Positions 23,171-28,302 of a stretch of 64,000 nucleotides of DNA are shown one piece after another. Source of the DNA: Halolamina sp. CBA1230 (GTDB taxonomy: Archaea; Halobacteriota; Halobacteria; Halobacteriales; Haloferacaceae); assembly GCF_002025255.2 (NCBI RefSeq), contig NZ_CP054587.1, positions 1,860,001 to 1,924,000 of the forward strand. The letters are read 5' to 3'. Numbering within the stretch: position 1 is the first letter of the stretch; the number at the start of each line of letters is the position of its first letter. The notes under the pieces are model-generated. The model had not been told where the DNA came from and did not search any database. It worked only from the letters and a program-made list of their open reading frames with translations. The translations under genes and the position numbers were made by a program.

Positions 23171-23198
23171 CAATATATCTTTGGCAAAACGTAGATAT
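23171..23198 (-). promoter_or_regulatory. Promoter and palindromic operator of the DUF7342 pair
   Basis: On the minus strand GATATATTG lies about 25-33 bases before ATG 23147. ATATCT (23175-23180) and AGATAT (23193-23198) form an inverted repeat around it. Confidence 0.5.
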
Positions 23199-23255
23199 CC
23201 GAGAAAACCGTCGCGGGGCCGAACTGTTTTGCCCGTACCGCCGAACGCCCGAACG

Positions 23256-23795
23256 ATGGTCGCCGTCGACGCGAACTACTGTCCGACCTGTGGCGCCGCC
23301 CTCCAGTCCCGCACGTTCGAGGGGCGCGACCGCCGCTACTGCCCCGACTGCGAGCAGTTCGTCTGGCGCAACCCCGTCCCCACCGCGGGCGTCGCCGTCC
23401 GCGACGGCGACGAGATCCTGCTCGTCCGCCGCGGCGGTGGGCCGAGCGAGGGGTACTGGACGCTCCCCGGCGGCTACCTCGAACCGGACGAGTCGGCGCC
23501 GGCTGCCGCGGTCCGGGAGCTCCGCGAGGAGGCCGGCGTCGACGCCGACCCCGGGGAGCTCCGGCTGCTCGGCACGCATCTCCGGGAGCAGAACGGCGGC
23601 GCGGCGTACCGAGCGCAACACGTCCTCCTCGTTCGCTACGTCGTCGAGCGCGAACACGTCGACGGGGCCCCGTCGGCGGGGAGCGACGCCGACGCGGCGC
23701 GGTTCTTCGAACGGGAGACGCTCCCCGAGCAACTTCGCGACCACAACCGTCGCTTCATCGAGCGAGCGTTGGCACGGGAGGAGCCCGGCCGATGA
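23256..23795 (+). CDS. NUDIX hydrolase with N-terminal zinc ribbon (copy 1)
   Basis: 179 residues from ATG 23256. Zinc ribbon CPTCG...YCPDC (residues 9-35) is followed by the NUDIX box GGYLEPDESAPAAAVRELRE with EEAG. Such proteins resemble NADH pyrophosphatases and ADP-ribose hydrolases and probably clean up modified nucleotides. It overlaps copy 2 by ATGA; copy 3 lies 0.9 kb downstream and shares its leader layout. Confidence 0.9.
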   Translation: MVAVDANYCPTCGAALQSRTFEGRDRRYCPDCEQFVWRNPVPTAGVAVRDGDEILLVRRGGGPSEGYWTLPGGYLEPDESAPAAAVRELREEAGVDADPGELRLLGTHLREQNGGAAYRAQHVLLVRYVVEREHVDGAPSAGSDADAARFFERETLPEQLRDHNRRFIERALAREEPGR

Positions 23796-24340
23796 CCGAC
23801 TTCCCGCCCAGCTTCTGCCCGTACTGCGGCGCCGAACTCCGTGGCGAGGACCCCCGCTACCACTGTCCCGACTGCGAGCGCGGCGTGTACCACTCGCCGG
23901 CGGTGGCTGCGGCGGTGGGGATCGTGGACCGCTCGGGTGCGACGCCGTGCGTGCTGCTCGGGGAGCGCGGCGCCGCGCCCGCCGAGGGTCGGTTCTCCAC
24001 GCCCGGAGGGCACGTCGACTTCGGCGAGGAGCCACGGGCCACGGCCGCCCGAGAGCTCGCGGAGGAGACCGGCCTCCGCGTCGATCCCGCGGATCTCCGA
24101 CTCCTCGAAGCGCGCGACCTCGAGACGGTCGTCCCCGAACCGGGGCTGACCGACGAGAAGCAGGTGGTCTGTGTGGACTACGCGGTCGAACTGGGCAATA
24201 CCGACGGCGAACCGTCGGCGGCCGACGACCTCGCGGGCCTGCGCTGGGCGAACGAATCCGAGTTCGACCAAGTGGAGTGGGCGTACACCGACGACGCGGC
24301 AGTCTGTCGGGCGGCGATCGCGGCGGTCGATCAGGCGTAG
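23792..24340 (+). CDS. NUDIX hydrolase with N-terminal zinc ribbon (copy 2)
   Basis: 182 residues. Ribbon CPYCGAEL...HCPDCERG (residues 9-31), then NUDIX box GGHVDFGEEPRATAARELAE with EETG. It is coupled to copy 1 by ATGA and ends 10 bases inside the convergent small membrane protein gene. Sequence outside the box differs from copies 1 and 3, suggesting a different nucleotide substrate. Confidence 0.9.
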   Translation: MTDFPPSFCPYCGAELRGEDPRYHCPDCERGVYHSPAVAAAVGIVDRSGATPCVLLGERGAAPAEGRFSTPGGHVDFGEEPRATAARELAEETGLRVDPADLRLLEARDLETVVPEPGLTDEKQVVCVDYAVELGNTDGEPSAADDLAGLRWANESEFDQVEWAYTDDAAVCRAAIAAVDQA

Positions 24341-24567: not shown

Positions 24568-24643
24568 GACTCCCCATTTCTCGACGATGATTGATCAGTT
24601 TTCGGGACCGAACCGTTTTCTCCCCACCGACGAACCCTCGATC

Positions 24644-25207
24644 GTGATCGCCGTCGATGCAGACTACTGCCCGCTCTGCGGTGCTGCGGTCGAACACCGC
24701 GAGGTCGACGGCCGCGAGCGCGCCTACTGCCCGAATTGTGAGCGCGTGCTCTGGCGCACGGCGGTTCCGAGCGTCGCCGTCGCGGTCGTCGACGTTGACG
24801 AATCGCGTCGCGATTCGTCCGCCAGTCAGACACAGTCTGACGACGGCGACCGTGTCTGCTGTATCCGGCGCGGGCAGCCGCCCGCCGAGGGCGCGTGGGC
24901 GCTCCCTGGCGGCCATCCTGAACACGACGAGCCGCTCGCTGAGGGCGCCGCGCGGGAACTCGAGGAGGAAACCGGACTACACGTCGACCCCGACGACCTC
25001 GAACCGATCGGGACCGGGTTCGCAGCGGGGTCGGAGCGCAACCACGCTGCGATCCACTTCGGCGTGAATCGGGCCGCGGCGACTGGGGCCACGGAAGCGG
25101 GCGACGACGCCGATGCGGTCGCGTTTCTCACCCCCGACGCGTACGACGAGCGCGAGTCGCTGGTCCACGACCGGGCGAGCGTCGAGGAAGCGCTGAGGCG
25201 GTTCTGA
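24644..25207 (+). CDS. NUDIX hydrolase with N-terminal zinc ribbon (copy 3), palindromic insert
   Basis: 187 residues from GTG 24644, chosen because VIAVDADYCPLCG aligns with MVAVDANYCPTCG of copy 1 and both follow a similar GAACYGTTTT leader; an ATG at 24587 would add 19 residues. NUDIX box GGHPEHDEPLAEGAARELEE with EETG. Relative to copy 1 there is an extra roughly 17-residue segment (SRRDSSASQTQSDD) in the first strand-loop, encoded by two perfect DNA palindromes, and a shortened middle. Probably active, since the insert lies in a loop. Confidence 0.85.
   Translation: MIAVDADYCPLCGAAVEHREVDGRERAYCPNCERVLWRTAVPSVAVAVVDVDESRRDSSASQTQSDDGDRVCCIRRGQPPAEGAWALPGGHPEHDEPLAEGAARELEEETGLHVDPDDLEPIGTGFAAGSERNHAAIHFGVNRAAATGATEAGDDADAVAFLTPDAYDERESLVHDRASVEEALRRF
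24797..24841 (+). repeat. Two perfect palindromes inserted in frame in NUDIX gene
   Basis: The first has 11-base arms GACGAATCGCG and CGCGATTCGTC around a single T (24797-24819). The second has 7-base arms GTCAGAC and GTCTGAC around ACA (24825-24841). Both are absent from the paralog at the aligned position and keep the reading frame. Confidence 0.8.
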
Positions 25208-27634: not shown

Positions 27635-27700
27635 TTCTCTCCGTTCGTTGGGTTCGCTGTTCGTGTTTCGGTGGGAAGCAAGAGTAGATCTGGCTCGAAC

Positions 27701-28125
27701 AGCGACAGCAACAGCATCTCGATGCTTGACCACTTGCGACCGCAGGGTGCCGGGCACGAGGCCCATCATCAGAAATCGGAGATTTCTGATTGGCAGACGA
27801 GGATCTTCGATTCTCGTCGACGTCGCCGGACTACGTCCGGCTGGCAGCCGAGAGTCAGGGACTCTCGGCGACGCCCGCGAGGCGTCCACCGCCACCGCAT
27901 CGCCGTCGCTGTCGGCGCGAAGCGCACGCGGCCTCGTGCCGCTTGTCAGAGCAGGATCGAAGATCCCGCAGGCCGTACGGGCGACGCACGGGTCGCCCGT
28001 ACGACAGCGCGAGGGACGAGTGACTGAGCGACAGCGAAGGAACGAGTCGGCTGGGGAGGTTCGTGGGCTGTGCGGGGCAGTTGCGGTCACAAGTGGCCAA
28101 CGATCGAGCTACTGTTGCCGTCAAT
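27701..28125 (+). repeat. Dispersed element with inverted-repeat ends, copy 1
   Basis: Core end sequences GACCACTTGCGACCGC (27728-27743) and GCGGTCACAAGTGGCC (28083-28098) are inverted repeats (14 of 16), and the similarity continues outward (ACAGCATCTCGATGC against ATCGAGCTACTGTTGC). The right third carries blocks shared with copies 2 and 3 (GCGAGGGACGAGTGA, GAGTCGGCTGGGGAGG, GGCTGTGCGGGGC). It lies in the 668-base gap after the HTH gene. Open frames across it lack any recognisable protein features. Confidence 0.8.
27768..27869 (+). repeat. Four consecutive hairpins with 3-base loops
   Basis: Arms ATCAGAAATC (loop GGA, 27768-27790), GACGAGGATC (loop TTC, one wobble, 27796-27818), GCCGGAC (loop TAC, 27825-27841) and GCCGAGAGTC (loop AGG, 27847-27869). 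Gaps between hairpins are 5, 6 and 5 bases. A further hairpin with 12-base perfect arms CGTACGGGCGAC lies at 27973-28002. Confidence 0.85.
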
Positions 28126-28256
28126 GCCGAAGGATCGAGCTACTGTTGCCGTCAATGCCGAAGGATCGAGCTACTGTTGCCGTCAATGCCGAAGGATCGA
28201 ACTACTGTTGCCGTCAATGCCGAAGGATCGAACTACTGTTGCTGTCGATGCCGAAT
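28102..28256 (+). repeat. 31-bp tandem repeat, five units
   Basis: Units begin at 28102, 28133, 28164, 28195 and 28226, each starting GATCGARCTACTGTTGCYGT. Units 1-3 are identical, unit 4 has one change and unit 5 four. The unit resembles the outer end of repeat copy 1. There are no spacers, so it is not a CRISPR array. Confidence 0.9.
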
Positions 28257-28302
28257 AGGAGTAAGATCGTAGCTAGCCCAGTACCACCGAAAACCTCACT
28301 AA

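Follow-up and report, generated by a model that had tools for sequence, protein, structure and literature searches.

Palindromic elements that sit in frame within protein-coding genes have been described in Rickettsia and in a small number of further bacteria; a review of prokaryotic MITEs from 2024 regards in-frame palindromes as a speciality of Rickettsia (PMC10969869). Two of the Rickettsia palindromic elements, RPE-4 and RPE-6, are classed as CGTC-4 and CGTC-1 in the paper on CGTC-tagged palindromic repeats (Di Nocera et al. 2013, PMC3733652), whose stems are 8–9 bp long with two initial A-T pairs, whose loops are 4–5 nt and whose end motif is CGTC or TGTC/CCTC; the same paper remarked on palindrome inserts in bacterial uvr genes, and it has been unresolved since 2013 which enzyme acts on CGTC palindromes. 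The haloarchaeon Haloquadratum carries PATEs, which derive from IS605 ends, and small mobile repeats (SMRs) of 80–110 bp, which have terminal inverted repeats but do not duplicate their target; the mobiliser of its SMR-A elements, which insert in palindromes near the ends of IS605-type elements, is unknown (PMC3119063).

Here we analyse a paired palindrome in a 64,000-nt stretch of Halolamina sp. CBA1230 (NZ_CP054587.1, positions 1,860,001 to 1,924,000; the window), and conclude that it is very likely a copy of a palindromic element of Halobacteria that is mobile but non-autonomous. The work compares one genome per species and contains no wet data; the window genome is G000, and G000 to G006 are all Halolamina. 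No earlier description of the haloarchaeal family emerged from the open-licence literature that we searched, supplements excluded.

A paired palindrome in a NUDIX gene

The open reading frame at 24587–25207 encodes a 206-residue product with an N-terminal Zn-ribbon and a NUDIX domain, and translates both palindromes in frame as DESRRDSSASQTQSDD. The relevant features of the window are as follows.

23181–23795, plus strand: neighbouring NUDIX paralogue, without the insert (ORF, domain search, alignment)
23792–24340, plus strand: second NUDIX paralogue, without the insert (ORF, domain search, alignment)
24587–25207, plus strand: host gene, Zn-ribbon NUDIX hydrolase, 206 aa (ORF; PF00293, E 2.3e-15; PF14803)
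24793–24796, plus strand: left tag CGTT, family consensus CGTY (logo of 90 dimers)
24795–24845, plus strand: inserted segment, 51 bp or 17 codons (filled/empty alignment GTCGAC...GGCGAC)
24797–24819, plus strand: hairpin 1, GACGAATCGCG-T-CGCGATTCGTC (two-sided changes across the family)
24820–24824, plus strand: linker CGCCA, NGSCA in the family consensus (no variation at positions 2 and 4 among 90 dimers)
24825–24841, plus strand: hairpin 2, GTCAGAC-ACA-GTCTGAC (arm and loop inspection; family search)
24842–24845, plus strand: right tag GACG (GACG in 63/90 dimers, GATG in 12/90)
27768–27869, no strand assigned: intergenic cluster of two tandem dimers, [ATCAGAAATCGGAGATTTCTGAT]tggca[GACGAGGATCTTCGATTCTCGTC]gacgtc[GCCGGACTACGTCCGGC]tggca[GCCGAGAGTCAGGGACTCTCGGC]gacg

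The arms of hairpin 1 (24797–24807 and 24809–24819) pair perfectly over 11 bp around a 1-nt loop, and those of hairpin 2 (24825–24831 and 24835–24841) over 7 bp around a 3-nt loop. The initial annotation had claimed just such an 11-bp-arm and a 7-bp-arm palindrome, the latter with a 3-base loop, lying in frame at 24797–24841 and missing from the neighbouring paralogue; all of this held, coordinates included, and the second NUDIX paralogue also lacks the segment. Its exact ends remain uncertain by a few bases because of a repeated CG, and the CG of the left tag is likely to be target DNA. Alignment with the paralogues places the insert at an inter-strand turn upstream of the Nudix box, from which we infer that it is probably a tolerated surface loop; AlphaFold models of the three NUDIX proteins of the window (mean pLDDT 43.7) were uninformative, the insert falling within a stretch below 50.

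The paired palindromes at 24797–24841 exceed chance. Shuffled windows contained no stems of at least 10 bp with loops of 1–6, and hairpin pairs with a 3–5-nt linker occurred five times in 204 kb of unselected DNA from the same genome, against an average of 0.3 per second-order Markov shuffle. The string GTCAGACNNNGTCTGAC is found 3 times in the window genome, 11 times in G003 and 9 times in G010; its reversed control was never found.

Constant borders and variable stems

A search with 61 bases of the NUDIX locus returned full-length relatives elsewhere, in the same genus and in others, and a mechanical scan recovered a constant plan of CGTY, hairpin 1, NGSCA, hairpin 2 and GACG. One copy is made of two unlike hairpins, usually of 17 or 23 nt each, with NGSCA between them, CGTY to their left and GACG to their right; the family unit is a head-to-head dimer of CGTC-tagged palindromes. 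In a logo of 90 dimers, restricted to those of canonical length, the left flank was C at −4 (81/90), G at −3 (86/90), T at −2 (82/90) and Y at −1 (87/90), with CGTT in 39/90, CGTC in 31/90 and TGTC in 4/90, and the right flank was G (87), A (89), C or T (81) and G (80). The linker had an invariant G at position 2 and C at position 4, under an extraction rule that itself demanded NGSC[AC], and it ended in CCA or GCA in most of the dimers, one tail being common to both hairpins. Tandem arrays (L103, L112) alternate the linkers TGCCA and GACGTC.

While tags and linker are conserved, the stems vary from copy to copy: the 90 dimers hold 63 distinct sequences for hairpin 1 and 46 for hairpin 2. Stems are mostly of 7 or 10–11 bp and start GAC, GCC or RYC, with loops of 1–3 nt. 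In the seed alignment 99.6% of cells were paired, with 31 two-sided changes against 7.3 in shuffles and no one-sided changes; the seeds were picked by eye, and the statistic is descriptive. No stem change in this alignment passed through G-U, which fits a constraint on DNA rather than RNA. The search relied on a dimer model, which single hairpins would escape.

Distribution of the family

A covariance model, R1, matched 86 of 99 Halobacteria genomes, and in a phylum-wide draw of 197 genomes (E 1e-5) it matched 23 of the 33 Halobacteria but no genome among the roughly 164 outside that class. Within Halolamina there were at least 56 matches in G000, 59 in G003 and 52 in G004, which are lower bounds since at most 59 candidates were scored per genome, together with 9 in G002 and 4 in G005; element DNA also matched a contig of Halolamina pelagica CGMCC 1.10329. 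Copies are dispersed within genes, between genes and inside IS605-type transposons.

In the window itself, R1 found the NUDIX copy and an intergenic cluster near 27.8 kb (27821–27872, minus strand, E 6.9e-14). This bears out the suggestion that one palindrome family links genes and intergenic DNA, as the cluster at 27768–27869 is two tandem family units. These intergenic dimers are embedded in a bigger palindrome mosaic (27690–28060) that includes CGTACGGGCGACGCACGGGTCGCCCGTACG at 27974–28003, and near copies of the mosaic occupy further intergenic loci of the window genome (L169, L181); immediately downstream, at 28063–28272, lies a short tandem repeat that is SSYCCRQCRRIELLLPSMPKD-like in one frame.

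Reading frame within genes

Family copies sit in frame in dozens of unrelated haloarchaeal genes. Among 40 chains in well-supported ORFs, about 36 were assigned to the family; the second L190 chain and those of L193, L195 and L205 were excluded as chance palindromes in coding DNA. Some 34 of the 36 share one DERSSASQTQSDD-like frame, whose predicted peptides include VDERSSSASQTQSDDVD and DESRSDSSANQNASRSGD; the two read otherwise (L116 and L136) are likely to reflect antisense ORFs. At sites with strongly coding flanks, an independent rule placed both sides in the same frame in 31 of 32 cases. The favoured frame yields a hydrophilic, acidic, stop-free peptide (for Halolamina, for example, DSSASQTQSDDGDR, as predicted from the DNA), whereas several of the other readings contain stops or give basic peptides. 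Each insert would add about 15–19 residues to the protein, and tandem copies more; this is inferred from sequence, and expression at the protein level was not tested.

That a length divisible by three might be intrinsic to the element was first suggested by 56 of 60 copies classed as intergenic, mostly from Halolamina, but is contradicted by genus g13. There the amplified intergenic type measures 49 nt across hairpins and linker, which is not a multiple of three, while all four intragenic copies (39-nt units) are multiples of three in the same measure; selection therefore best explains the divisibility of copies inside genes. The Halolamina intergenic copies are mostly divisible by three as well, probably since genes and intergenic DNA share subfamilies. 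The 49-nt g13 subfamily (L380–L398) is uniform, of the form TCACGAGAGC...ATCAGAACGC, and a second palindrome pair (CGAGAGAGC.../CCCGAAAATC...) lies near it.

Filled and empty sites in Halolamina

Empty sites were sought by joining the flanking proteins without the insert and searching the seven Halolamina genomes. Orthologues in other Halolamina species were usually contiguous across the joint, and at 17 sites an ungapped empty orthologue was obtained once the hairpins plus 6 bp were removed. The net insert was hairpins plus 6 bp and always a multiple of three, at 45, 51 or 57 bp for single dimers. At the NUDIX site the filled form reads GTCGACGTT[45]GACGGCGAC and the empty form GTCGACGGCGAC, a net difference of 51 bp. 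The orthologue is filled in G000 and G003, with the same peptide core, and empty in G001, G002, G004 and G005; no clear orthologue was found in G006. The segment is thus missing in four of the other five Halolamina orthologues, and its presence throughout the order, which would have refuted the initial annotation, was not found.

A concatenated tree of seven genes resolved the genus as ((G000,G004),((G001,G003),((G002,G005),G006))) with support of 96–100, a topology in which the two NUDIX carriers are not sisters; the protein flanking the G003 insert resembles that of its own clade. Other genes are likewise filled in two non-sister species: the L191 gene (G000, G003), the L104 gene (G003, G006) and uvrC (L206 in G004, L323 in G002), where the inserts are identical. 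The L203 gene carries nearly identical inserts in G003 and G004 that differ by one inverted loop; this hairpin loop is reverse-complemented between L203 (G004) and L324 (G003), GAA versus TTC, as if flipped. Such shared inserts require recombination, parallel insertion or repeated loss, and for the NUDIX gene two insertions at the same site, short-tract recombination or several precise losses are all conceivable. Insertion is inferred solely from the comparison of species, and no transposition event was observed.

The insertion boundary

The cleanest site is noncoding, at the left end of an IS605-type transposon. In six genomes this end is intact, with CAGGGCG running directly into GGGATGAAG and the whole reading CCTTCAGGGCGGGGATGAAG; in G052 and G059 the same left end reads CCTTCAGGGCG-TC[23]TGCCC[17]GA-CGGGGATGAAG, an exact duplication of CG around TC...GA. 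At the 17 coding sites, this boundary had only a slight edge over its neighbours, with summed mismatches of 49–52 for cuts 2–4 versus 55–56 for cuts 0, 1, 5 and 6. We take insertion at CG with duplication to be likely, though not proven: its main support is a single exact noncoding site, and CG dinucleotides abound in the host DNA.

In the mechanism we propose, insertion at a CG dinucleotide would leave NNCG-TY[hp1]NGSCA[hp2]GA-CGNN; the hairpins would fold as DNA and be recognised by an enzyme acting in trans, and out-of-frame or harmful insertions would be purged by selection. The mobilising enzyme is unidentified, and a present-day Y1 (IS200/RAYT-type) transposase would not be required.

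Alternative explanations

The alternative that survives best is that Y1 transposases of the IS200/IS605 or RAYT type mobilise the dimer in trans, as for GTAG REPs, and that the dimer is a miniature IS605 (PATE). This remains possible. Of 30 Y1_Tnp loci, each inspected over 3.4 kb, 8 carry a dimer, where a hand estimate from genome-wide R1 copy numbers predicts about 0.3; dimers occupy fixed places in IS605 ends, transposon families and TnpB 3' ends; the number of Y1_Tnp genes (PF01797, counted in the 99 genomes used for R1) correlates weakly with dimer copy number (rho 0.26); and haloarchaeal PATEs as short as 52 bp have been described (PMC3119063).

Against it, five genomes with no Y1_Tnp match (G001, G012, G037, G038, G077) hold 10–39 copies each, and two of these that belong to one genus (G012 and G038) differ at each of the six testable insertion sites, where one has the copy and the other does not; a direct Y1 role is therefore rated lower. 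The G012/G038 difference could mean either that another enzyme acts or that both genomes have lost Y1 since a recent period of activity. In addition, no Y1 gene was seen with copies on both of its sides, the ends of IS605 contain other palindromes, PATEs have a 4–5-nt target without duplication (PMC3119063), and some IS-borne dimers have the linker CGCACA in place of NGSCA, which suggests passengers. We take the IS605-borne dimers for passengers or preferred targets, by analogy with the Haloquadratum SMRs and their preference for IS605 palindromes (PMC3119063); that they are the source cannot be discounted.

Several transposon-borne structures were seen alongside. Double hairpins lie in TnpB, or between TnpB and its omega-RNA-like 3' end GCAGGAAGCCCC, at L118 (G010), L137 (G007) and L301 (G067), and in some of these TnpB is truncated by the double hairpin. 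Separately, a Y1 transposase gene (L303, G015) holds an in-frame paired palindrome, SGGIEDSADLAEQGS, that lacks CGTC tags.

A second alternative dispenses with transposition, the dimers spreading by homologous recombination or gene conversion between copies and template switching at forks, with rare formation de novo. The identical uvrC inserts in the non-sister G002 and G004, the loop inverted between G003 and G004 (GAA versus TTC) and the two-sided stem changes without one-sided intermediates would all suit it, but it is made unlikely by the numerous private insertions in which a full dimer sits, precisely bounded, in an unrelated gene.

Much less credible still is a role of the hairpins as conserved regulators or RNA elements, for example terminators or attenuators, in place of mobile DNA. 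They are strong, but they lie within coding regions, are missing from orthologues, show no G-U step in their stems and do not keep their positions relative to genes between species; in Rfam, eight loci gave no match to the hairpin unit, the sole match being an unrelated leuA leader. Finally, an ancestral protein segment lost in relatives, its palindromy a by-product of codon bias, would account for the filled sites in the non-sisters G000 and G003 but is all but excluded, given that the same DNA unit recurs both between genes and within dozens of unrelated ones, that its stems covary and that wider homologues lack the segment.

Discussion

A mobile palindrome family thus remains our preferred reading. 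The claim of a selfish palindrome largely held, except that selfish mobility by a named enzyme has not been shown; resemblance to the Rickettsia elements held for in-frame insertion in genes, while membership of the RPE or CGTC groups is supported by architecture only. A bolder reading, for which we find about as much to say as against, is that Halobacteria have their own family of CGTC-bordered dimers, the first in Archaea, which is independent of Y1, is recognised as paired DNA hairpins by an unidentified enzyme, inserts at CG and has repeatedly given proteins small acidic loops, for several genes at one site shared by more than one species.

The family is abundant and still polymorphic, its hosts can be cultured, its unit is defined and its empty sites are clean; together with a genus that lacks the usual suspect, this would allow a direct hunt for the mobilising enzyme. 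A further consequence is that short acidic insertions with a selfish origin are present in many haloarchaeal proteins, where they would otherwise pass for functional loops or adaptations to salt.

Among known systems, the GTAG REPs with RAYT transposases share tagged palindrome dimers and presumed recognition of single-strand hairpins, but have GTAG as their tag, a dedicated RAYT and mostly extragenic copies. The Haloquadratum PATEs and SMRs (PMC3119063) are likewise haloarchaeal, short, palindromic and transposase-free; this likeness was judged without comparing sequences. A PATE would share its terminal palindromes with a parent IS605-type transposon; the dimers within IS605-type elements sit beside the elements' own end palindromes and apparently duplicate CG. 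The Rickettsia palindromic elements (RPE-4, RPE-6 and the longer RPE-1) are similar in lying in frame in many unrelated protein genes and adding a short peptide, and differ in sequence, stem geometry and host, sequence membership being untested.

The closest likeness is to the CGTC repeats (PMC3733652), with which the haloarchaeal dimers share CGTC outer ends, a CCA-type unpaired tail beside the stem, a predominance of head-to-head dimers, heterodimers, subfamily-specific stems, intragenic as well as intergenic copies and the lack of a dedicated or known transposase. In contrast to those repeats, the haloarchaeal stems are mostly 7 or 10–11 bp and start G/A-A/C/T-C, their loops are 1–3 nt and their hairpins stand just 5 nt apart. 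The CGTC repeats are listed from bacterial phyla only, with no archaea, whereas the present hosts are Halobacteria; and they show no transposase association, whereas the haloarchaeal dimers occur at some Y1_Tnp loci, yet are abundant without Y1_Tnp. Although membership is not proven, because the stem and loop definitions of the four CGTC families are unmet and no archaeal hosts are found among them, the haloarchaeal family works like the CGTC repeats.
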